A stretch of DNA of 64,000 nt from Pagrus major (lineage: Eukaryota; Chordata; Actinopteri; Spariformes; Sparidae), in contig NC_133220.1 of assembly GCF_040436345.1 (NCBI RefSeq), positions 8,446,664 to 8,510,663 on the forward strand, in the 5' to 3' direction. The position numbers and the translations under genes were made by a program. Position 1 is the stretch's first letter; every line of letters starts with the position of its first letter. Shown in pieces: positions 4,551 through 43,077 of the stretch. The notes beneath the pieces are model-generated. The model was not told the DNA's origin. It was given only the letters and a program-made list of their open reading frames with translations, and did not search any database.

Positions 4551-5658
4551 CATGCCATGTGACCCACTGACTCAAAATCAATGCCAAAATGTATTCCTAC
4601 ACTAGTTAAATGACAGATACCTCTTATTTATTGGATTTTAATGGTTCTTCTATTTCTTTTGGAAGATAAAACGTTAAAAAAAAATATCACAAGCACTAAA
4701 ATCCAGTAAAAAGAGGTTTCTCTCATTTTACTAGTGTAGGACGATAATGGGTCACATGACATGGAAGCTGATTTTTCATCAAAATATTGATATAAAATAG
4801 GACAAGGACTAAAATTCAATATAAAGAGGTGTGTCTCATTCAACAAGTGTAGGAAGACACTTCGGCATTGGTTTTTGAGTCAATGGCTCACATGACATGG
4901 AATCTATTGAAAAAAAAGCTGATTTTTCATTAAAATACTGATATAAATTAAAACGAGGACTAAAATTCAATATAAAGACGTGTGTCTCATTCAACCAGTG
5001 TAGGAAGACACTTCGGCATTGATTTTGAGTCAATGGGTCACATGACATGGAATCTATTGAAAAAAAGAGCTGATTTTTCATTAAAATACTGATATAAATT
5101 AAAACGAGGACTAAAATTCAATATAAAGACGTGTGTCTCATTCAACAAGTGTAGGAAGACACTTCGGCATTGGTTTTGAGTCAGTGGGTCACATGACATG
5201 GAATCTATTGAAAAAAAAAGCAGATTTTTCATTAAAATACTGATATAAATTAAAACGAGGACTAAAATTCAATATAAAGACGTGTGTCTCATTCAACCAG
5301 TGTAGGAAGACACTTCGGCATTGGTTTTGAGTCAGTGGGTCACATGACATGGAATCTATTGAAAAAAAAAGCAGATTTTTCATTAAAATACTGATATAAA
5401 TTAAAACGAGGACTAAAATTCAATATAAAGACGTGTGTCTCATTCAACCAGTGTAGGAAGACACTTCGGCATTGGTTTTGAGTCAATGGGTCACATGACA
5501 TGGAATCTATTGAAAAAAAAGCTGATTTTTCATTAAAATACTGATATAAATTAAAACGAGGACTAAAATTCAATATAAAGACGTGTGTCTCATTCAACCA
5601 CTGTAGGAAGACACTTCGGCATTGATTTCGAGTCAATGGGTCACATGACATGGAAGCT
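4551..5658. repeat. 151-bp tandem array with an inverted terminal arm
   Basis: The marker TTCGGCATTG recurs at 4861, 5012, 5163, 5314, 5465 and 5615, giving a period of 151 bp (last step 150). Units carry CATGACATGGAATC, a TTTTTCATTAAAATACTG segment and GTGTCTCATTCAA. Later units are nearly identical; the first direct unit (about 4700-4860) is degraded. The left end (4551-4650) is an inverted copy of the half unit that ends the array, so the block is bounded by inverted repeats, as in a short DNA transposon whose interior has been amplified. Minus-strand open frames of 64-103 codons here are by-products of the periodicity and are not genes. Confidence 0.9.
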
Positions 5659-5740
5659 ATTGAAAAGTTTTGCTGTGCTCATGCTGTGACTGAAATATTT
5701 ACAAAACTTACACCATGGGCAACATCCGCCCCCTCAGACT

Positions 5741-5813: not shown

Positions 5814-16521
<10,708 letters not shown>

Positions 16522-17235
16522 GCCCGACAGAGCTCGAGTTTGAGCAGGACAGAACGCCGAAGTCGAGCAGCCAGAAAGGATCAACTGGAGCTCTGAATGT
16601 AAGGATGGTGATTGTATACTGCCACTGAGTGAAAGACTGATTGCAAAGCTGATTGTAAAATTGAGGCAGAGTTTTTAAGGTGATCATTAACAGGGAGACT
16701 TTATGTTTAATTTTGACACACTGTTGATTTTAGTGCCGGTTTCATGAACATGGTTTACAATGCTTTCTCGCAGGTCTCTGTTCACCATCCTGTTCAATCA
16801 CTTAGTTTGCTTCCGTCATCCAGTTTTGTTTTCGTGGCTGTGTTCAGTAAACTTGAACAGACTGTTATGACAGATGAGACGTTCAGCTTGCAGAAAAATG
16901 AATGAAAAACAAAAAGTTTATTTTGAGATGTTTTTGCATCAGTCATTGACACGCTGCCAACACACAACACTGAGCAGCCATATGGGCAAATTGTTTGGTT
17001 GGAGTGTGTTTGTGTGTTAAGAGAGCGAGAGCTGCAGCAGTAATTACAGCTTTCAGCGGTAACACTTCTAACATGAAGTGTATTTAATGTGCCTTGAGGC
17101 TGATGTGATGAAAGCATCATTCACTTAGACTGCTTTTAATTTAAGGCAATCATACCACACAAAATATCTGCTTTTTGTTTCCCAGCAACCTCACGCCATA
17201 GTCTTGGGAGAATCCATGAGACTCCTTTTGTTTCA
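16522..17235. other. pank4 3' region, convergent with a minus-strand candidate
   Basis: This is pank4 3'UTR followed by unique-looking sequence. No plus-strand AATAAA is visible. The reverse strand has AATAAA (16917-16922), about 315 bp beyond the stop of the minus-strand candidate at 17236. The open frame 16794-17120 (minus) shows no coding character. Confidence 0.45.
16917..16922 (-). terminator. Candidate polyadenylation signal of the minus-strand gene
   Basis: TTTATT on the + strand reads AATAAA on the minus strand. It lies downstream of the TAA at 17236-17238 at a distance normal for a 3'UTR. One hexamer in AT-rich DNA is weak evidence alone. Confidence 0.3.
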
Positions 17236-17828
17236 TTACTGCCAGTGAATGATTTGAGATTTAAGAAATGAATCATTGTCACTGTCACTTGTGTAGCTGT
17301 TAAAAGTGGCGTCAGGGAAAAATCGTTTGATCAGTTGAGAGAAGCAGCACTTTATCACAAAAGAGATTTGGTCGTGTTCCTCCACAAGGTGGCAGTATTC
17401 TACTGTGACGTAGTTGCTCATGATATCTTTAAATCTTTTCCCAAGGTGCTTGGTGTCAAAAATTAACACTGCATATTTCAGGTTAAATATTCTGTCTCTG
17501 ATCAAAAAAAGCATCACTTGGAAGTCGTTGTCACTGAGCTGTCCGTGGCACGAGTCCAGGGTTTCATTGTAACTAACCGGCATGTTCAAGTACAAGCTGT
17601 AATCCATCTCTAAATCAGAAATGCAATTGTTTGAAGGCAATAATACTGCAGCACGTAGTCGTAACGAACATCGAACACTGTGTGATTGTGAAGCGGTCGA
17701 CTTATACCGGTGACTTCGTCGTAAATATCTGAATTCAAGGCAGGATCTGAATTTAAAAGCCTAAAATGTTTCTCCAAAGTTACAGCTGCTTGACATGTGG
17801 ACTCACATTGCAATATTGTAATTGTCAT
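17236..17828 (-). CDS. Unrecognised minus-strand candidate gene (two ORFs, about 176 aa if spliced)
   Basis: Two overlapping minus-strand frames read like real protein. The 3' one (17645 down to 17236) has a mixed, balanced composition with motifs such as NDFQVMLFLIRDRIF, AVLIFDTKHLGKRFKD and SQLIKRFFPD, and ends SQIIHWQ. The 5' one, from ATG 17828-17826, includes VTLEKHFRLLNSDPAL. Removing 17646-17707 (GTATAAG donor, CTGCAG acceptor, 62 nt) joins them in frame to give 176 aa. That intron is very short with a poor pyrimidine tract, and its own frame also looks coding, so a frameshift (pseudogene or sequence error) is equally possible. It is convergent with pank4 and has a plausible AATAAA at 16917. 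The alternating hydrophobic strands suggest a small alpha/beta fold. I considered a SPO16-like (XPF-like) meiotic protein from length and strand pattern only; that is a guess. Confidence 0.45.
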
Positions 17829-17876
17829 TTGTACATACATGTGATATACAAGTGTGAGTGTGTGTGTATGTGTGTA

Positions 17877-17925
17877 CATATATATAAATATATATATAGA
17901 TATACATATATCTATATATATAATT
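17877..17925. repeat. AT-rich (TA)n microsatellite
   Basis: Interrupted ATATATA runs, directly upstream of the minus-strand candidate gene and next to a short GTGTGT tract (17853-17876). Confidence 0.8.
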
Positions 17926-18300
17926 GATTTGCCTCACTTCAGTTCAGCACACCAAGCACAACGTTTGTGTATTATTATCCTGACAATCAATTTTAATTAA
18001 ATGGTGAAAACCTTTTTATTTTATTCTCGTTGTGTGTGTGCGTGTGTTCATTCCTCATGTGTCGGGTCAGGTTGCAGTCGTGTAGAGGGAATAAGGAAAG
18101 TTGAAAGTTGCCCCATATTAAAAAGCCGAACCTGCCCCCGGCGGTATAAAAGCTCGACACCCTGGTATGTGCTGGTTGATGCCTGCTGGGGAGCTGCGGG
18201 TTGATAATGCATGAGGACGCCTGGCAGGGGGTCCCCCTGCTTTCCCTCTCGCTCATCACTCTGACTGCCAAAACACATGCACACACATGCACATGCACAT

Positions 18301-23646: not shown

Positions 23647-24735
23647 GTAAGGAATTATCTTTTTAACACTAATTGCGTGATTCCCAGTGTGCGCGCGGGG
23701 GCTGGTTATCAATGAAAAGCCCATTAGTGGCGTTTCTTTTGTGTCTTGGATGCGTTTGTGGTTTTTATCTGATGCTCTAATGAGTTTGCTGTGACTTTAT
23801 GGTGATTTATGTTATTTAATATATTTCATTTTTGGGTTATTCATGAAGTATTTGTCTGTAGATCTCAGTTCTGAAGAGATTTTATGATTACGCGCATGAT
23901 TTAGGCTGCATGCGCGCGTAAAAACGCACCAATAATGATGTCACAAAGCTTAATAACTTAATTAATGCACATTGTTCCCTCCCAGTATCACAGATTATAT
24001 ATATAAAAAAAGGCAGTTTGACTTGCAGAAAGAGTGTCGATCATCACCAGAGCAATCAGCAAAACATTAGATTTGGTTTTGATACCAGAGAAACTGAGTT
24101 AAATTGATAATCGGTTCAACTTTTGTGCCGGTGTTTCCTGCTGTCAGGCTTTAAACTCAGATCAACATCACAAAGGAATTTATTGGATGAATGGTGAAGA
24201 GAATCAGAAATGATTGCAGCGATTATCTCTTCCTGACAGCTCATTGTTGCTCCCTGCACACACACACCAAAGACAGTGTTAACAGTGTGTGTGTGGTGTG
24301 TATCTGTGTGTGTGTGTGTGTGTGTGTGAGAGACAGATAAAGGAAGGAAGGAAAGGAGGGAGGAGGGGGAGGAGGAAAGAGAGAGATTAAAGTTGGGAGT
24401 CTCAGTGTGACACCGTGCAATTAAAAAGTGGAACATGCTGCAGAGCACCAAATATTTGTGGACTCACATTAACGAGTTGATGTTAATTAATTGCAAGTCG
24501 ATCAGCAGGGAAGCATCAGACGTGATCAGGACCCCACAGTGAGTCGACCTCGGGGCCAAAACAAAGCTCGGGATGCGCTTTAATACCTGATAAAGACGAG
24601 ACAACCCGAGGAGACGCTAACATTTGATGTTCGCGCGGAAATTAATTTAGTCTTTCCCCCCCAAAATGTGCATTTTTTACATAATTAGCTGACACACTTC
24701 AAGACTTCAAGTCTAGAACAAGGACTCAAACACCC

Positions 24736-24951: not shown

Positions 24952-25518
24952 TCTTATTTTCGACACACAAACAATTTAATTTCTTTCATCCTGAGTTTGA
25001 GTTTCAGCCAAACAGCTACATCACTGAACACCCGCCCGGTCTCCTCCACCTTCACCGGCGGTGGTGGTGTTAAAGCTGGTGGCTGCATCTGTTTGATGGA
25101 GACTCTTTGAACACTGGCAGGCGGTCAGCCAGCGCTGCTCGCCGCCACCCGGAGGAGGGAGGAGAGAAAACTTTGGGCTCATATAATGCGTTTACATGCT
25201 TCACTTGATCGTCTCTAAACACGAGTGTTTCCCTCCCGCTGACCGGTCAAACTGTTCCCATGCACACACACACACAGACACACACAGACCCAGGTGTCCA
25301 CATTTAACAAGTTGTGTTGCTGGTTTTTCAGAAGCCAAAGCTTTGTTGTTGTTGTGTGTTAGAGGGGATTCAGCTGGTGTCCTTATCTGCCACCAAATGA
25401 AAGATGCCACCGACACTTTGTTCTAATTAAGACGGGATAAATCCTCCCTCCGTCTCTCTCTCCTCTCTGTCCTCCCTCTCACAGCGTTACATCTTATTTT
25501 CTCCTTTCCTCTCAGTTT

Positions 25519-25573
25519 CTTCCTCCTCCTCCTCCTCCTCCTCCTCCTCCTCCTCCTCGTCCTCCTCCTCCTC
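25519..25573. repeat. (TCC)n microsatellite
   Basis: A run of TCC/CTC units with one CGT interruption. It encodes a spurious Glu-rich minus-strand frame. Confidence 0.95.
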
Positions 25574-28262
25574 CCTTTTGTCTCTCTCATTCTCCCTCCT
25601 CTCTGTGGGACGCCTCTTGCTCTGCTTCTGGTGCTGTTTGTGTCTCACAGCATTTTTGGATCCTGCCTCTATGTGGGTGTCTGGAGGAGGTTCCCCCCGC
25701 TGTGACTGAGCGAGTGTGTGTGTTTGTGTGCATGCATTGATTGTCACGGAGAGAAAGTGAGTGTGTGAATGTGAAGGAGATAAGGGGGGCCACGTCGCAG
25801 GATGTTACCATGCATCAGCGACAATGTTCTGGTTCTCGCCCCACATCTGTTGTTACCTGCGACCGAATTACCGGTGAATCATCGGGTGTCTCCCTGCTCT
25901 CTGCTCCGGCTCACTCGCTGACAGATGGACCTTCCTTATGGCTCTTGTTTTTTTGTTTTTTTATCACCCTGTGTCGCTTCCAGGGGCCTTTGCCATCCAA
26001 TACACACCTAAAAGCTGCAAACCCTCCCAGTCGGTGCGTGAATCCCCAGTCCTGATATTGTTTTGCAAGAGGATTTCGGGAGACAAAGCACTTTTATATT
26101 GCTGAAGTCAGGTGCTATTGGCCCTTTAGGAAATGAAGTTTTATGGTGTTAACTGCAGCTTGGCAGGGGTGTTTATTACGCAGAGGCGTTGACTGGAGCT
26201 GTAATTTGGGCTGCTTGTTATTGAGCTGATATTTATGATAATTTTGTGGCGCAAACTCGACGTTTTTTACCCCGAAAATGAGAGAAATAAAAGTGTTTGC
26301 TAGTGCATCAAATGTTCAGCATTATTACCTGGAGATGAATGTCTCTGTTTGGAGCCCAGCTGAATTGTGTTTGTGACATATCTTTTTATTTGAGTCTATT
26401 ACACTTAATCACGCACTTTCTTCTTATTATCTGTCACAGAACAGATACTTAAGCTGTTTGCTCGCTGAGCCGAGAAGCTGAAAGGAGATATTTAGTTTGT
26501 TCTTGTGGAGCTTCGCACGACCAAAAGTGACCTGTGATTTCTTTTTTCCCCCCCTTTTTTTTATTCCTTTAGTAGGATCATTTCTTTGGCTTTTACCCAA
26601 AGCAAACACATGACAGTACAGAGTTAACGTCAAATCAAAGCGGAAACACATTTTCTTCCCACCTTGCGTTTCCAAAGTGGTGTTAAGGCGAGCGGATTGT
26701 TTCAACAACACAGGACAAAACGTGAGTTCATTCGTTAATTTAGTCTCTAACGGACACGTGAAAGAAGATAGAAATGGTGCCAGGCTACATCGGAAGTCAG
26801 GCTTCATTTTCCAACGAGATTTTGTGCCCGACAATGGCAGACAGTGTGAGTGAAAGCGAGCTCTATATGTGCAATCAACATTCACTTCCTGATGGTACGT
26901 TAAAGCAAAAAACTTGTCTGTTGCTAGTTTAAGATAGACACCGTCCGCAATAACAAAAACGTAAAGTAACTCAACGAGATAAGACAAAACATCGAGACAC
27001 GGGGCAACGTCTCAGTCCAAGGATCGTATGATCAACATCCTCAAAACAGAAAGATCAACAATCAATCTGTTTTGTTCGTACAGATCGATAGAAATGATCC
27101 CAACAACGGTTGCTACGCTTGTAAAACGTTTTAGCTGTTGTTCAGGTTGGAGTTAGTGAAGTTAAACAAATCTCTGGATGTGATGGAAAGAGAAAACCAT
27201 GAATGCTGGGTTACTGGTGTATTTTTTTAACTGGGAGCAGAAACTTCCTGGAGAAAGTCACATGGATGAAACAAACAAGATTAAAAGTGATAATTGAGCT
27301 TTTTTTTCAAATGCTGGTATTTAGATTTTGTTACTTTTCGGCAGAGTCAAGCGAGCTGGTTCCATTGATTTTCAGTGTTAATGCTAAGCTAATTGCCTCT
27401 GGCTAAAGCTTATTATTCAACACATGCAGGTTTTGTACAATAACCAGACCAGATTCTCACAGTATCCTGGTGTATGATATTATACAATTATTATTATTAT
27501 TGTCACTTACAATGACCCTTAAGGGAATGAAACAAAAGACTCAATTATAATCTCACACAAAAAACTGTCCTGACAGACATGAAACTCGATATAAACTGAC
27601 TGATATATATTTTCTTCTAACACTAATATGTTAGAATTCATTACTTTATATAAGCAAACTTACAGTTTTCATGCAAAACCGCTCTACTGCTGAAACCCTG
27701 TGAACTCTGGAAAAGAAAGCACATTTCCCCAAATCCTGAACTTTTCCATTAAACCTTTAATCTCAGCATGCGGCCAAGAAGAAGAAGAAGAAGAAGAAGA
27801 AGAAAAGAAATCCTGAAGGTGGCCTCTGCCTGACATGACAGCTCTGCTCCGACAGCCTGTTTGTGGGGTCTTTGTTTGCTGGATCCTTATGGCCCCGCTG
27901 GTTGCTATGAGAGATAAAACAACAGGAGCAGATGGCTCCTGGAGGTTTGGTGTCCCAGCAGGTGAAAGCTAAGAGATGCACACGTACAGCAATTTAATAC
28001 CGGGGGTCGCCTCCTGCTGCACCTCGCTGCTCTTTCCTCTCAAAGTGAAGTATATTTTTTATAACGCCGTGCTTTAGGGACTGACCGATTGATCACACGC
28101 TGGAGAGAGGTCTCTGATCTCATCACAGCTTAATCATCCAGCCCTCCGATAGTGCCCTCCTTTGCAAGATTATCTTTCACTTCATACTCATCTCGCTCCG
28201 CTCTGATCCACGTGTCCCCGGTGGCCGTCTCACACTGTACGCTGTGCTTATAAAAGCGTCTG

Positions 28263-33870: not shown

Positions 33871-34628
33871 GTTTCAAACTCTTGTTTCCTTTTTATAACC
33901 GCTCAAAATACACGTACAGCTGAATGACTGAACAAATAAACCTTTAGTGACATTAAATCACAATTTGAATTTCGCCTGACTTCACACTTTAATATATAAA
34001 TAAAAAAAGGTGAAGTGCTTCCACTCCACACCGTCATTTTCTTCACGTTTGGACAAGCTGCCGGGCCTTTAATGCGGACACACAGAACCTCATATTTCAG
34101 TTCAGTCACACCTCACAGATATGTTGACTTTTGTAATGAAAGGTACGGTCGGACGGCTCTCGAGACCACTGAATAGGAGGTGATGAAGGATGTGCGCAGT
34201 GCAGTTTCTCATACTGAGTAAGGGGTGCAGGAATGAAGGCTGGGAAGTCATTTCTAAAAAGTGTCTGTCCGTCTCTTTATCGTCTCCTCAAACCCACCAA
34301 GTCCAGATAAATGGGCCCACTGAAGAGGCCGAGAGGGATGTCGTCTGAATTCGTAGGACGGGTGATGGAAGAAGGAAAACAGCAGGACAGATCACAAAAA
34401 TGGAGGACTTGCGGGTTTAGATCAGGGCTTCTGCATCAGCATCAATTATGATGATGTACTCGATATAATCCTCCGAAACCACCGGATTGTTCTGTAGGTC
34501 CTGTATGAACAATCACTAGTGCCGCTTAAATCTACATTAAGTTTCAGCGTCAGTGATTTGAATCTGAATGTGAGCAGTACTGAGATGTATTTTCTCCTCC
34601 CAGCAGGTGGAGTTGTGCTTTACAGACA

Positions 34629-37600
34629 ATGGCTCTCTCCTGGAGTCTTCTGCTGGCGTTCCTGTTTGCCACCCTGGTCCTGTCGCACAGCGCCGAGCCC
34701 GGAGCCCCTCACGGCAAGAGGAGACAGGGACAGACCTCAGCTGGTGGCAGCAACACCCTGCAGCACCCTCTGCAGGGCCTCCAGGGCCACCGCTACAGCA
34801 GGGAGCGCGGAGGTCACGGGGGCCAGGGTGCCCGCGGTGCCAAAGGAGGAGCCGGGCTGCTCTCCCACAGGCCCCTGCACCCCCTGGCCAGGCCTGAGGA
34901 CGATGGGACGGGCCTGGAGAGTTTGAGCCCGGTGAGACTGGAGATGGGCCCGGGCAGGGACAGAGACAGAGCTCGAATGAGTATGAAGAGTCCGCAGCAG
35001 GCCCGGGACAACGACCTTCTGGGGACACGCAAAGGGAGGGGGCATGGACACGGGAATGGGCACGGACACCACTTTGAGCACAGGAGACAAGGGAGTCGGC
35101 ACGAAAAGGGGCGGCATGGAAAAGGTGAGTCCAGTGATCCAAACATACAAAATATAGACCCCTGTCTGACTAATTATCCACTGCAGCAACAAGGAGCTAA
35201 AGGGATTTTTTTACAGAAGACGTTGTGACATATAACAGTAGTATCCCTTTCACACTGGATCCACAGACACCCACGAACACCTGGCTTTTGTCTTCAGTGG
35301 GAATGGGTACAATTTTCATTCACTCCAAGATCAAATGACTCTGCAGTAGTCACAGGTGTTTATCGGCTCCAGCTCCGACTGGCAGTGATGGAAACATGAT
35401 TTAGTGCCGCTCTCTGCTCCGTTAACAGAGAGCAACAGTAGCTAACGTTATTTTAGGAAAGGAGTCTGCTAATATAAACTAAGTTCCACGAAGCACCTTT
35501 TACAGCAACATCTCTATCCATAGACAACGTCCTGCTTGGTGACTCCAGATAATTTACCATCCTCAGTGTGAAGAGTAACTAAATTGAAGTGTAACTAGTC
35601 TCTACAGTATAAATGGTCTGTGTGACACCTGTTGACAGTGAGGTCTGTCGATTATTCAGAATAAACGAGACCTTGTTTCTGGGAATTATTGTTGTTGAAA
35701 AAGCTGAAACCGTAGATTGGAAGGGTTTTTTGTTAAAATATGAAAAGTAAACTGGTTCCAAGTTTGTTAGAAAATGGTGCATTATGTAGTCATAACACAT
35801 CCAAGTCAATTTGGGCGCCACCTGAGCCAAATTATTATAAAGATCAATCTGGAGAGAATCAGAACTAACTAAATGACAGATGGTTGTCATTAAGCCTTGT
35901 GGGTGTTGATTATTTATTATCTGCTCCAGCTTTTCCAACTTTTTGTACACAGATATGATAATAAAAATGGTCTGAAAGTATGTGAAACTGCCTCCCACAA
36001 ACTGTAATATCTTCTCTTTTTGTCCGTCCTGTCTGTCCAGGGTTTCTGCCTGAACCCGAGCTCAGCTCTGCGTTTAGGGACAGAGATCTGTTCGACGATC
36101 CTCCCTCCTCCTCCTCCGCCGCCTCCCCCTCCTTCAGCGTGACCCCGCCCAGCGAAGCCCCCTCCCCCATCGCTGCCGTCTTTGGCTCCGGCTCCTCCAT
36201 GGTTACCACGGTGATGAACGAGCATCCCCCAACGCTGCCCCCGGCCTCCACCAAACCCCAGGTAACCCCAACGAAACCCAAGTGCTTATTAAAGGCTGCG
36301 TCTGTTGTGGCTCAGTGTGATCCCAGTGTGCGGGGGAAGTAGAGCGAAAATGGGCCCCATTACTGCCGTTATGCCGCCGCAAACCTCATAGCTCATCTTG
36401 GAAATGACACTCTCTGCGGCGTGAACCTGAAAGTGCCGCTTGTGAAAAATATCCTCCAGCAGGCCAGACTCACTGGCTCTTGGTCACAGCGTGTGTATGA
36501 TAAATATGGCCGCGTTTCTGTATAATAAAACGACGCCTCCGGGATCAGAACCACACAGTTCACATTTTCTATAACTACCTTCCTTTATTAGAAACCATGG
36601 CAGGGCAAAATGTATGCGAGCTTGGAGAGTCTTTTTTGTGCTCGTGGGCACATGCGCTGAAAAAACCTGCAGGAGTGCGTGGGGCACCACTCACCACCTG
36701 TCACACTCCCCCAGCGTGATGCTTCAACAGTATGCATAAACAGCATTTAAGAGAAAAAAAAGAGACTCGCACGTGTTTTCCCCAACCTCCTTTTATGCTG
36801 GAACCGGTACAAATGAGACTCTTTAAGACAAGATTGGCACCTGATATCAATAGATGTTGAGCCAGTGCCCACTTTGTCAAAGCGTTTTGTCACAGCTGCC
36901 GCTACAAACACCCAACAGCTTGTAGGGCGTTGGTGGGAAATAAAAGGCCGAAGTTACAGGATCACCCACATTGTTTGATTGACGTGTTGTTTTGTTGAGG
37001 ACTGCAGCTCAAGACGACGCAGTACAGACGTCGCTGGATGTTTGTTTTAAAGGCACACTATGCAGGATTTGTCTGTTGCTGATGCATCGAGTGATTCTGA
37101 AGAAAGATTGTCGATTTTTGAGTCGTCAGATATTGATGCTTTGGGTTAAAGTGTCGGTGTTTGACAACAAAATAAAATAAAATAAGAAAATACAGATACA
37201 GACACTATAACACACATCTAGTGGGTCATTTACATTGTTTATTGAGGGGAAATCCTGCAGAGTATACCTCGAAAGAATCTGTTGTATTGAAGTCGACTTG
37301 AAACTTGCAATCGAGAACATGAACTCATTAGGAAACTGTTTACTGAGGGAATAAATCAAGCGAGAAGTAGGGTCATTTTCTCATAGGCTTACATACAATT
37401 GGATTTCTTTTTGAAACCGGTGGAGGACATTTGAAAGTTTGCAGGATTAAGGCACTTAATAATAGGCTCCTCTTTGCTCTGTCCGGTGTTCATACAGTCA
37501 TTGATATCACACTCTTGCACTTCTTTAGCACCTGCTTGAGATTTTAAATTCACGGTGGCTCTGTTTGACTTCCCTGGTCCGTCTCTATGTTTGACGACTG

Positions 37601-40600
37601 TAGATTGGACTGTCAGTCTGTTTGGTCTTCGATGTCTGAGAGTCCAGCAGTCGTGAGTCTTTGCTTTTCAGAGCAGTCAGATATTATCGCACCACAGAAG
37701 GAAAAAAAAGCCTTCCCTAATCCTTGGTTCAGTGGCACGACCGTGCGGCAGGGCTTCTTAATTAATGTTCGATCTTCTGCTGATGGTTTAATGAGCAGCG
37801 GAGCACGAGCAGGTATCCCCCTGCAATTAATCTAATTGATATTTCCATATAGGCTCATTTCCTGAGGGCGATGGGAAACAAGTATGGATCTGTTTCCATG
37901 AGGATGTTGATTCTCATTTTTTGATGGATGTCTTTCAGGGACCAAATATTCCTCTGGAGACCTTTCAAAGTCCTGCTGACTTCATTAGACTGTCTAACAT
38001 TTCTGTTTTGTTTCCTCTGTGTGAGTAAAAGAGACGGTGGCAACGTTTTTATGGCTTTTATCGTGGAAAGTTATGGCTGCTGAATCCACGGGGGGAGTTT
38101 TGTTTTACAGCAGTGTCATCACATACTTATCTGAGAGACATTATTTTACTGAGGCAGAATATTTGAGCTTATGATACTCATACCTTTATATGATTTTATG
38201 GATCAGTCCAAAGATACCCAGCTACTGACTTTAACTCTTAAGGGGGCTGCAGAGATTTAAACTGCTCATCAAATTTTTATTTTCTTGTTATTGGAACTAC
38301 ACTGAAACATACAAGACAATGAAAATATGGAAAAAGCGTGACTACTACAAACAAAATGGAGTCATTACACATCAGTGCTGGAGGTTAAGTGTTGGAGAAG
38401 TCAGTTCTTGCAATCACAATGCAATATATTTGTAATGACTTAAAGTCTAAAGCTCGAAATAGCAGCCTCACCCTGCATTGTTAAACATACCCCACAGTAT
38501 GTAAGTGTTAGAAAGGAAGAGCAGTTTCCTGTACTGATAATTTTTCTATTCTTAGAGTCGTATTATCGCTGCCAGAGGGTGAAAAGAACATATCTTTGCT
38601 TGAGGGTAGTTTAAGAGTACAGATCATGGTGTCAGTGAAGTTTAAAGGGATTATCCCTTTGGGAGCATGAAAGTACTCAGCTAATTTTTTTGACAGTATG
38701 CTTTCTTGATGATCTGATATCAAGTGTGGTCTGCTGACGATTTGGCAAAAAGGTCTGTTTGAACAGAAAAAAGGTGGAGGAGTTTCTAAAATAGAAGGTG
38801 TTTATTCTCTGGGAAAAACAAAACATGTCTTTATTAGCTTTAGATTTGTTCTCATGTGGCTCTGATCAAAAGTACAAACTGACTTTAACATCAGAGGCTA
38901 CAGTTTGCATCCTGTATCCCACCGACAGTCAATGATTGTTTTAGAGGTGAGCTATATATTGATTAATTGATTAGTCGTTTGAAGGAAGAATTGCTTTTCT
39001 TTGTGATTTATGACGGTAAATGAAAAATCTTTTGGGTTTGAAGCAATTTGAGGATGATGGTGATGAGCATTTTCACATTTTTGCTGCACAATTAGTCAAA
39101 GTAGTATCGTAATCCCAAGAAATTAAGATATACAACCTTTTTTTGATAAAGGCGATGAAGTACAGTAGCGCTGCAGAGACGTCCTGACGTTTGAATCTTG
39201 TTCTCCAGATGTAAGAACGTTTATTTGGTACAGAACGTCACATCAGTGATCAGTGAATAATGATTAGTAATTTCTAATTAAACGATTAGCCCTTGTTGTT
39301 TTGTTTCAACCGTGACCAAGATCTTTCTTGAACATTAAAGGAGCACTCTGTAGTTTTTGGGATGACATTTGAATCAGAAGACAAAGATCTTCACCGACTG
39401 ATTGTTTTTATGCCTAAACAAACTAAAATAACAAACTCTCTTTGTTTTCATGGCTGAAGAAACTGAAAAAACAACCCGACCTTAAAGGACAACACAGTTT
39501 CATACTGTTTGGCGGACCCTACCACGGTGCCCCTTTAATCAAGGACTTTTAGTTGTGTCACAATGAGAACAGACAAGGTGGAAACACAGGAGAAAGTAGG
39601 TTGGCAGATCAGCTGCAGAACGTTTATCCAAAATAAACTACAGGAGCAGGATCAGGATCAGGCGAACAGAACAGAAAATCAGGAAGGGGGACAACACAAC
39701 ACAGACTCAACACAGACTCAACTAACGAGGGGATGCGGTGCAGGTGGAGAAGCACAGGTGAGGGTAATGAGAAAGGAAGGAGCTGATAGGCTGGGAAGAA
39801 CGATGGCAGAAGGGCTGAGCCAACGAAGGTGATGCCGTGCAGGTGTGGAGGGAAAAGCAGAGCGAAAAACACCACGAAAAAACAGACAACACAAATAAAA
39901 TGAAACTAAAAGTTGCTTCAACTAAATAATCACAAGCTGTTCAAGCTGTTTTTTTAACAGTCATATTGTTTTAGAAGTCAAACAGCCTTAGAATAATTTG
40001 ACACTTTTAATCAAAGTCACTGGTTTACTTGAAATAAACATTGCATGTGTTTAATTATCTGACTAAAATACAGTACAGGAATAATAAAATGTCCACCCAG
40101 GACCGCTGTTGACTCGCAGGCTGCATTAGAAATAAAGCCTGCGGTTGTGTGTAATGAACCGCATGTTTAAATCCATACGTCTGTACGTTGTGTGTGCATT
40201 AACAGCACAAATGTTGGTGGTAAATATTTGTATTCCAGACTGTGGGCAGTCATGCTCTCTGTCACCAATCGATGGGTTTTTAAAGCTCTGCTGCTATCTC
40301 TGTCGACTCTGCGAGGGCATTTTATGAATCAATGAAGCGGCTCGGACTGCCGCTGCCTCTGCTCGTCGCAACACGAGTCCGACGTGTGAACCCCCCCGAA
40401 CGTGTTTACTCGCAATGCTGATAGAAAAACACTGTCGACAAATCAAACCGCAGTCATCTGCTGCAGCTGTGGTTGTAATTGCAGTAACTGAACATTCATC
40501 TGAGGCGACAGAATTGATCTCTCTACAGCAGCTTATACGCTGGATTGAGTCAAACCTAGGATTAGTTTTTAATGCACATCTTCATATTCTGATCACAATT

Positions 40601-43077
40601 GTATTTGAATACATAAATAAAGCAGATATTTCACATATTACCATGGAGGCAGACCTTACACAGCATGCTGAGACATAATTGAAGCTGGGATTAGGTGTTT
40701 ACAGATCTGCATATCAGCATGTTTGAGCTGCTCTGTGAGGATTTCTCACATAGAACGTATGCAAATGCTCCCGCTGAGATGTAGGGTTAGTCGTAAAATG
40801 TAAAGACTCGCTTCAATGTTATGTTTTCTTTCTCAGAGGTCTGGAAGAGGGAAAGGACAGGGAGAGGTGATGCCAACGTTGGACATGGCGCTCTTTGATT
40901 GGACAGACTACGAGGACATGAAACCTGTGGACACCTGGCCGTCGTCCAGGAAGAAAGGTCGGTAATTAGCTTTAATTGTAAATTTGCAACCGATTTTGAT
41001 TTGAAAACAGGATACGTGGAAATAATCCATATCAAAATCAAATTATCCCTATTATATTAAAATATTTGAATATGTTTAAGTTGACAAAACTGTGTTTCTT
41101 TCCTGCTGCGGTAGACAAGAGGCGGAGTAAGAACCTCAGCAGTGGAAACGTGACTGTAGACGCCGACGCCATCGAGCCGTGTGACCACCACCTGGACTGT
41201 CTCCCAGGTCAGTCTGCATCCCACATGTCACCATACGACGCTGTGAGGCTACAAAATACAAAAGATTTACGTCATAAGATTCAATTATCATTATACAACG
41301 CAAGATTGTATAACAAACTTATTATGTGCAATAACTAGAAACTGTGGAAAAACGTAGAAAGAAGCTGATTCAGAAAATCCGTTTTCAGAGATGACAATGA
41401 GCACGACATTCCTTGTAGAAATGATCACTAATACTACTTTATTTTTTATTTTTCAGTATTTCTTATATATCATCTCAATTGAAATATCTGTTGAAAGTAA
41501 TGTGCTTCTTCTGTTAAAGGTTCTTGTTGTGATCTGAGACAACACGAGTGCAAACCTCACAACAGAGGCCTCAACAACAAATGCTACGACGACTGCATGT
41601 GTGAGGAAGGTGAGTGAAGAAACTGTGCTACAGTGTTGAAACAGTGTCACGACAGCACAGTATCACATGACAAGGGGCACGGCTTGAAGGAAAAGTGCAA
41701 CATTTTGGAAAATAGACTTGAGCGTATTGATACCACTGTCTTATCTGCAGCAAACATTTTTACACTGTGGTTTATATATATATATATATTAAACAAGCAA
41801 GATGAGCTGCTAATTAGTTCATTTTGTAACCTTCTGAGAAAGCTAAGCTAGCTGTTTCCCTCTGTTTCCAGTCTTCATATTAAAGCAGCTGCAACAAACT
41901 TTAATTTTCAGCTGATTTTGGCGGCCCCTCTGGACAGAGGCGGTAGAGTTTCCATCACCTCAACTCATAAAGACCTTAATCTGGCTAGCAGGTGTATTTG
42001 TTTTGGAAGAGAAATACCTCGAGACAGTCAGTTCATGATCGGGTTTGAATCCTTTCAGATCCAGTTGTCCTCTTCCTTTTATCGGAGGTCGACAGAGGAT
42101 GACTTGTACTTTTCTTAGTGCTCTATCACTGTCCCTTTTAGCCTTTTTATTTTGTTCTTCATTCAAGTTTTTCCTTTCCCTTTGGCTTTCTTTTAATTGG
42201 CTAACATACTCACTGCAAAACTTTGCCTGGGCAAATGAAAACATGGGCTCTTTTTGTCTGCATACCCTGAATTGTTTTGGCTGATTTTCACGGGGACTCA
42301 AACATGGTGACTGTGGAAATAGCCAAACTTTAAGCTGATGGTCTTGTTTCCTTATGAAGGACATGCGTAGTGCATTTACCTCTCCATCAGACTCCACAAC
42401 TTCACCTTTTAAAAGCAGTGCTCCACTCGGTGGCACTTTCAGCATCTGTGTAAGAGTTTACAGCAGCAGTTTGTCTCTTCATGTGCACTCGTGTTTCAGA
42501 CACATTTCCCCAAGTCTCAGTGTTTATAATTAAGGTTTTTACAAAGTCATTGACTGGCGATGGGTAAGGGTCCCTGGAGTGGCCAATTAGTGGCAGACTG
42601 ACGTGGTGGTAAACAGAAAACGTCCCAGTGTTAATAAATGTTGATTTTCATGTAAAATTGTTTTGAGTTAATAAACGCTGAGTTGATAGATCGTTCATGA
42701 GCTCCAGAGGCAGATTTCACTTCAGGGTTTGTTTTTTATTAAAATACATAAACGTGGCAAAAATCCCTCAGATGGGTTTAGAGTTGATTTTTTTACTCTT
42801 GGCGTCTATAACACTGCAGATGTCGCTGTTTATATGATCCAAACAGCCTGTAAAAACTTAAAGACTTACAGTTTATCTGAGTCATTGGACTTCCTGTATT
42901 TCACAGCACATTCACAGCTATCTGTTGAATCTGTTCAGATAACAGCTTATTTGTGATGTTTCAGGGTTTCGGTGTTACGCAAAATTCCACCGGAAGCGAC
43001 GTGTGACCAGGAGGAGGGGTCGCTGCGTGGTACCGGAGTCGGTCAGCAGTGACCAGGGAGGCTTCATCACCATCTGA
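34629..43077 (+). CDS. draxin: Draxin, secreted axon-guidance protein and Wnt antagonist
   Basis: Coding exons: 34629-35124, 36041-36261, 40837-40957, 41115-41207, 41520-41609 and 42965-43077. All phases agree and give 377 aa (human 349). An acceptor (AG 34605-34606) precedes a 22-nt leader. Residues 1-22 are a signal peptide (hydrophobic [12 protein letters not shown], likely cut after SHSA). Residues about 23-165 are basic and Gly/Arg/His-rich, with a Gly-His run near 138-148. Residues 166-239 are Ser/Pro-rich and likely disordered. A short conserved acidic block ([14 protein letters not shown]) lies in exon 3. The C terminus (302 to about 364) is a Dickkopf-like domain with ten cysteines ([14 protein letters not shown] through RRGRCV). 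One sequon, NVT, lies at 291-293. Draxin is secreted, repels growing axons through DCC and netrin interaction and antagonises Wnt through LRP6. The neighbour agtrap is also its human neighbour. Confidence 0.97.
38950..39125 (-). repeat. Diverged CTATAAAATG-family repeat in draxin intron
   Basis: GATTAATTGATTAGTCGTTTG, ATGACGGTAAATGAAAAATC and TTTTGGGTTTGAAGC are reverse-complement matches to blocks of 46551-46740. It lies in the 4.6-kb intron between coding exons 2 and 3. Confidence 0.45.
39338..39540. repeat. GCACTGTGTAG-family inverted-repeat element, copy 2
   Basis: It opens TTAAAGGAGCACTCTGTAG and ends near GGTGCCCCTTTAA, with GTTTGGCGGACCCTACCAC inside. It shares CAAAGATCTTCACCGACTGA-like text with 52425-52775. 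The draxin intron immediately downstream (39560-39900) is purine-rich with many ACACA/GCAGGT phrases and no gene. Confidence 0.65.

Follow-up and report, generated by a model that had tools for sequence, protein, structure and literature searches.

Coding signal on the minus strand opposite pank4

The window analysed here, a stretch of 64,000 nucleotides (nt) of Pagrus major DNA (contig NC_133220.1, positions 8,446,664 to 8,510,663), carries at 17236..17607 of its minus strand an open frame with the codon-position composition of protein-coding sequence, convergent with the last coding exon of pank4. On balance we favour the view that this segment truly codes for protein and that it most likely forms the final, or the sole, coding exon of a small fish gene that evolves fast. 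Its secure part would run from 17607 to 17236 and specify 123 amino acids (aa); the candidate gene would be transcribed on the minus strand towards pank4, and its coding sequence would start either at the ATG at 17607 or in a short upstream exon joined by a splice other than 17646-17707. A first-pass annotation had placed here an unrecognised minus-strand gene convergent with pank4, with a 62-nt intron and a possible kinship to SPO16; the coding segment is supported statistically, whereas the proposed splice and the SPO16 kinship are not.

The two minus-strand frames on which that annotation relied do exist: frame A, which begins with an ATG at 17828 and ends in a stop codon at 17612-17610, and frame B, open over 17760-17239 for 174 codons. 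Over 17239-17643 frame B is the sole open frame, with 5 to 13 stops in each of the other five, and the GC contents of its three codon positions (GC1/2/3) are 0.39/0.27/0.53. When 4000 chance open reading frames (ORFs) were simulated under each of three backgrounds, none attained the resulting GC3-GC2 difference of 0.27, and 5, 0 and 1 of them reached the chi-square value of 28.7. Across the window, 27 of 4240 segments of 405 bp have an equal or higher chi-square, or 16 of 3457 once tandem repeats are set aside; the candidate is one of them, as are exons of hes5, pank4 and draxin and some low-complexity DNA. By blastn the candidate has no second copy in the window; a gene borne by an unrecognised repeat is conceivable, the single-copy status applying to the window.

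By frame contrast, the coding core (17236..17607, from an ATG in the context GAGATGG, with G at both -3 and +4, to a TAA; GC1/2/3 0.40/0.26/0.55) reaches 41.4 bits over 17239-17607, against -23.8 and -17.6 bits for the other two minus-strand frames. None of approximately 11,500 overlapping windows taken from the minus strand at 18.5-23 and 26-33 kb, which were assumed to be non-coding, reached this value, the maximum being 33.2 bits. The contrast model was trained on ten exon pieces of the window, mostly assigned by our own reading rather than by Pfam, and the limits of the core were left untuned, being those of the second exon in the first-pass annotation.

Several observations weigh against a coding interpretation. 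ORF length is not significant: under four Markov models, with 60 sequences of 24 kb simulated for each, 64 kb would carry 0.4-0.8 ORFs of 174 codons or longer by chance, and the window holds 5; length was discarded as a measure of significance, since such ORFs arise by chance in the simulations. The whole 174-codon frame has a scaled chi-square of only 11.1, which places it 22nd among the 53 ORFs of at least 100 codons, because the frame B signal ends near 17640 and the upstream third lacks it. By composition-sensitive coding score the best subsegment ranks only 103rd, and codon usage scores about -0.1 per codon versus +0.24 to +0.28 for the hes5, pank4 and draxin exons. Both measures of codon usage, one using a zebrafish codon table and the other a first-order model fitted to exons of the window, are negative or weak in absolute terms, which we put down to the AT-rich composition, so that only the frame contrasts are informative; the "balanced codon use" formerly cited is not borne out as absolute evidence, the scores being slightly negative. 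Neither Pfam nor the Protein Data Bank (PDB) sequences yielded a homologue at significance, and the adjacent frame A is also coding-like, suggesting a frameshift. Moreover, two presumed non-coding ORFs, at 25490-25804 and 40328-40675, outscore the core by period-3. The former is a GAG-rich repeat; the latter, on the plus strand, is an open frame of 116 codons with a scaled chi-square of 32.1, but its GC3 is lower than its GC2.

The number of long ORFs expected from the simulations is the argument for an open frame that arose by chance in AT-rich sequence. Nevertheless, the codon-position composition and the frame contrast speak against such an origin, and we regard it as improbable.

Start of the probable coding region and the possibility of a frameshift

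The coding signal ceases within 17608-17645, a transition zone between frames A and B in which the contrasts of the minus-strand frames (-0.4/-0.7/1.0 bits) leave none clearly preferred, so that a coding start or a change of frame could lie there; the best frame-switch points are 17631 and 17608-17613. Removal of 17646-17707 (GT...AG) joins the two frames in frame into 176 aa, exactly as the first-pass annotation had calculated. The protein-like composition that it attributed to both frames, however, holds for 17239-17643, where the codon-position signature was found, and not for its first exon at 17708..17828 (MTITILQ...DEVT; GC1/2/3 0.40/0.38/0.33), which has a contrast of -0.8 bits, equalled or exceeded by 57% of the non-coding windows.

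The 62-nt splice itself is disfavoured. Its donor (CCG/GTATAA, -1.1 bits) and acceptor (-1.8 bits) are ordinary, standing at the 84th percentile of all GTs and at the 81st percentile, respectively. The best acceptors beside the ten exons of the window score 0.3 to 11.6 bits, all above that of the proposed intron, and the five clearest donors score 2.5 to 4.9 bits, while the other five best-nearby donors (-2.2 to 1.1 bits) are perhaps not true sites; this comparison sets the best of several nearby sites for known exons against a single given site for the candidate. At 62 nt the intron would also be shorter than 76 bp, the putative minimum for vertebrates, under which intron frequency falls rapidly according to a study of teleost introns (PMC9438311). 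Finally, the segment removed is itself coding-like in frame A (+6.5 bits, reached by 3.1% of non-coding 62-nt windows), the opposite of what is expected of an intron. A frameshift is therefore at least as good an explanation as the splice, as had been allowed from the outset.

If the gene is decaying (a pseudogene) or the assembly is in error here, a single coding exon would follow frame A as far as about 17631-17609, where a frameshift would carry it into frame B for the remaining way to 17236; this exon might begin at an acceptor near 17746 or 17728. These two acceptors stand at the 91st and 84th percentile and fit such a single-exon model; the continuous model also scores 43.9 versus 39.9 for the splice model, and the frame A contrast is +9.8 bits over 17612-17728, beside the +6.5 bits over the 62 nt (standard deviation of the null 4.9 for 121 nt and 3.5 for 62 nt). 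Nevertheless, the frame A signal reaches only some two standard deviations, the 123 codons of the core are free of stops and keep their codon signature, and a long homopolymer is absent at the frame-switch point. We consider decay or an assembly error possible, yet rather unlikely.

For the favoured coding exon, a further start model uses a short first exon at 17807..17828, whose donor at 17806 (AAT/GTGAGT, 99th percentile of GTs in the window) would be joined to an acceptor at 17645 by removal of a 161-nt intron, giving 143 aa by hand frame arithmetic. Three models can take the place of the 62-nt splice: a single exon from the ATG at 17607 (123 aa), the 161-nt intron (143 aa) and a frameshift near 17609-17631. 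Downstream of the stop, the minus-strand AATAAA reported earlier was found at 16922-16917 (16917..16922); it is not significant alone, with about 0.4 expected per 500 nt at local composition by a hand estimate, and ATTAAA motifs at 17140 and 17088 lie closer to the stop.

Comparison with known protein families

No profile library used here recognises a family for the predicted product. Its hydrophobic pattern reads, in our judgement, as helix-strand-helix-strand-helix, and no signal peptide or membrane segment was seen by eye. With low confidence, the product could be a small soluble protein, probably alpha/beta and in the size range of subunits and adaptors; the pattern would suit a small alpha/beta adaptor whose binding partner is either a protein or a nucleic acid. 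Two AlphaFold runs on single sequences without relatives gave mean pLDDT values of 35.7 and 37.8, too low to inform on the fold. An intact, expressed fish-specific gene of 123-143 aa from an undescribed family, or a fast-evolving subunit of chromosome biology (XPF-, RWD- or HORMA-like) beyond profile recognition at the position of mammalian mad2l2, is in our view unlikely, if worth bearing in mind.

The closest approach to a known domain was Ctf19_RWD2 (PF22462), the second RWD domain of Ctf19/CENP-P, the one family that Pfam reported for the constructs with the core, in all four of them (E 0.02-0.05, 14.2-15.4 bits). The likeness covers 27-35 residues around DLEMDYSLYLNMPVSYNETLD, but even the best score of 15.4 bits lies under the cut-off of 26. 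Among the PDB sequences only Ctf19 (5mu3_B) appeared, with E-values of 0.85 (frame B) and 0.37 (spliced model), and the frame A piece alone (72 aa) matched no Pfam family. The shuffle tests made use of the sequences of SPO16, MAD2L2, MAD2L1, CENP-P, FAAP24, ERCC1, XPF and SHLD3. CENP-P was rejected, the human sequence aligning no better than shuffles, and FAAP24, XPF and ERCC1 gave nothing consistent. For SHLD3, 6 of 1000 shuffles scored as high as the spliced model and 33 of 1000 as high as the second exon, and one of three end-free settings gave 16 of 400. These values are not significant, since the alignment register changes incompatibly from construct to construct and 24 comparisons were made; the core alone was matched by 350 of 2000 shuffles.

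SPO16, the partner of SHOC1 in meiotic crossover formation, had been suggested as a relative on the basis of length and strand order. Indeed, the candidate is near human SPO16 (C1orf146, 180 aa) in length, its hydrophobic order of helices and strands is alike by eye, and blastp against a set of five proteins aligned a 38-residue piece (E 0.42), which draws on the doubtful upstream part of frame B. A highly diverged SPO16 with an XPF-like fold is nonetheless very improbable: the SPO16 profile (PF15162, SCRE) reports none of five constructs, while it recovers the human protein, as a positive control, at 287 bits (E 4e-86). The SPO16 alignments of the core and of the spliced model fall under the shuffle average, and the frame A score was reached by 101 of 1000 shuffles. 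In a Carassius study (PMC11144346), quantitative PCR primers are given for c1orf146 on its "chromosome 31", with a product of 141 bp, which in the one stop-free frame keeping the human spacing translate to KPQSTE...AKATSK over 46 codons; this equals the spacing in the human counterpart from LHGPEE (95-100) to AKTTSK (135-140). Judging from the primer ends, at least one fish would thus keep a recognisable SPO16. The AKxTSK motif of human and Carassius, as far as these primers represent the latter, does not occur within 17200-17830 in any of the minus-strand frames.

An origin from mad2l2 (REV7, a HORMA protein), as a relic or as a diverged copy, deserves mention since the candidate is placed next to draxin and agtrap and shows a loose collinear alignment to MAD2L2, equalled by 3 of 400 shuffles. 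Yet 3 of 87 other ORFs of the window, two of the 87 being frames of the candidate itself, align better to MAD2L2 than the candidate does, and stiffer gap penalties raise the matching shuffles to 72 of 400. A Pfam HORMA match is absent, and tblastn of human MAD2L2 against the window gave a best E of 1.2. Mammalian MAD2L2 has several introns, unlike the uninterrupted core of the candidate. This origin seems to us hardly credible. MAD2L2, DRAXIN and AGTRAP are listed as neighbours in a pig table (PMC8523896).

A scan of viral contigs found no relative of the candidate. A scan of prokaryotic contigs gave one 29% match, on the strand opposite an ORF that we read as coaE (dephospho-CoA kinase) on a Chloroflexi contig; it was taken as chance. 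No gene named at the locus opposite pank4 was found in the portions of the literature that the search returned.

Gene neighbourhood and implications

The gene order in the window appears to be hes5, pank4, the candidate, draxin and an agtrap-like gene, with hes5, pank4 and draxin all on the plus strand and the candidate on the minus strand. Pfam identified hes5 at 2453-2809 (HLH), pank4 at 6505-6921 (Fumble) and draxin at 34584-35225. The last coding exon of pank4, the convergent neighbour of the candidate, was placed at 16192..16521 (plus strand), with an ARMT1-like match over 16192-16518 (E 7e-4) that is below the curated cut-off, and two agtrap-like exons, one near 53.0 kb and the other near 57.0 kb, were assigned by our reading of the translations. 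An Rfam scan of the window reported nothing at the gathering score.

From the pank4 stop to 17996, the plus strand (16522-17995) contains neither AATAAA nor ATTAAA, so that the 3' untranslated region of pank4 may extend across the candidate, with a possible tail-to-tail overlap of the two transcripts. Slightly further along, TATAAAAG at 18145-18152 (plus strand) resembles a TATA box in locally GC-rich surroundings, with no coding frame recognised downstream. At 24119-24244 the minus strand holds a 42-codon ORF (MSCQEEIIAAIISDSLHHSSNKFLCDVDLSLKPDSRKHRHKS) that starts 9 nt past the acceptor-like TGTGTGTGCAG; its frame beats the others by 14.1 and 2.2 bits, and a good internal donor was not seen. 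The minus-strand ORFs at 4839-5678, with near-identical translated blocks (SIDSMSCDPLTQNQCRSVFLHWLNETHVFILNFSPRFNLYQYFNEKSAFF), probably belong to a minisatellite.

Without relatives or expression data, neither outcome for the candidate alters a field. If it is broken, it would provide a clean example of a gene dying between well-conserved neighbours. If it is intact, it would be a further short, fast-evolving vertebrate gene missed by homology-based annotation, and its location opposite pank4 would make it easy to track across fish.
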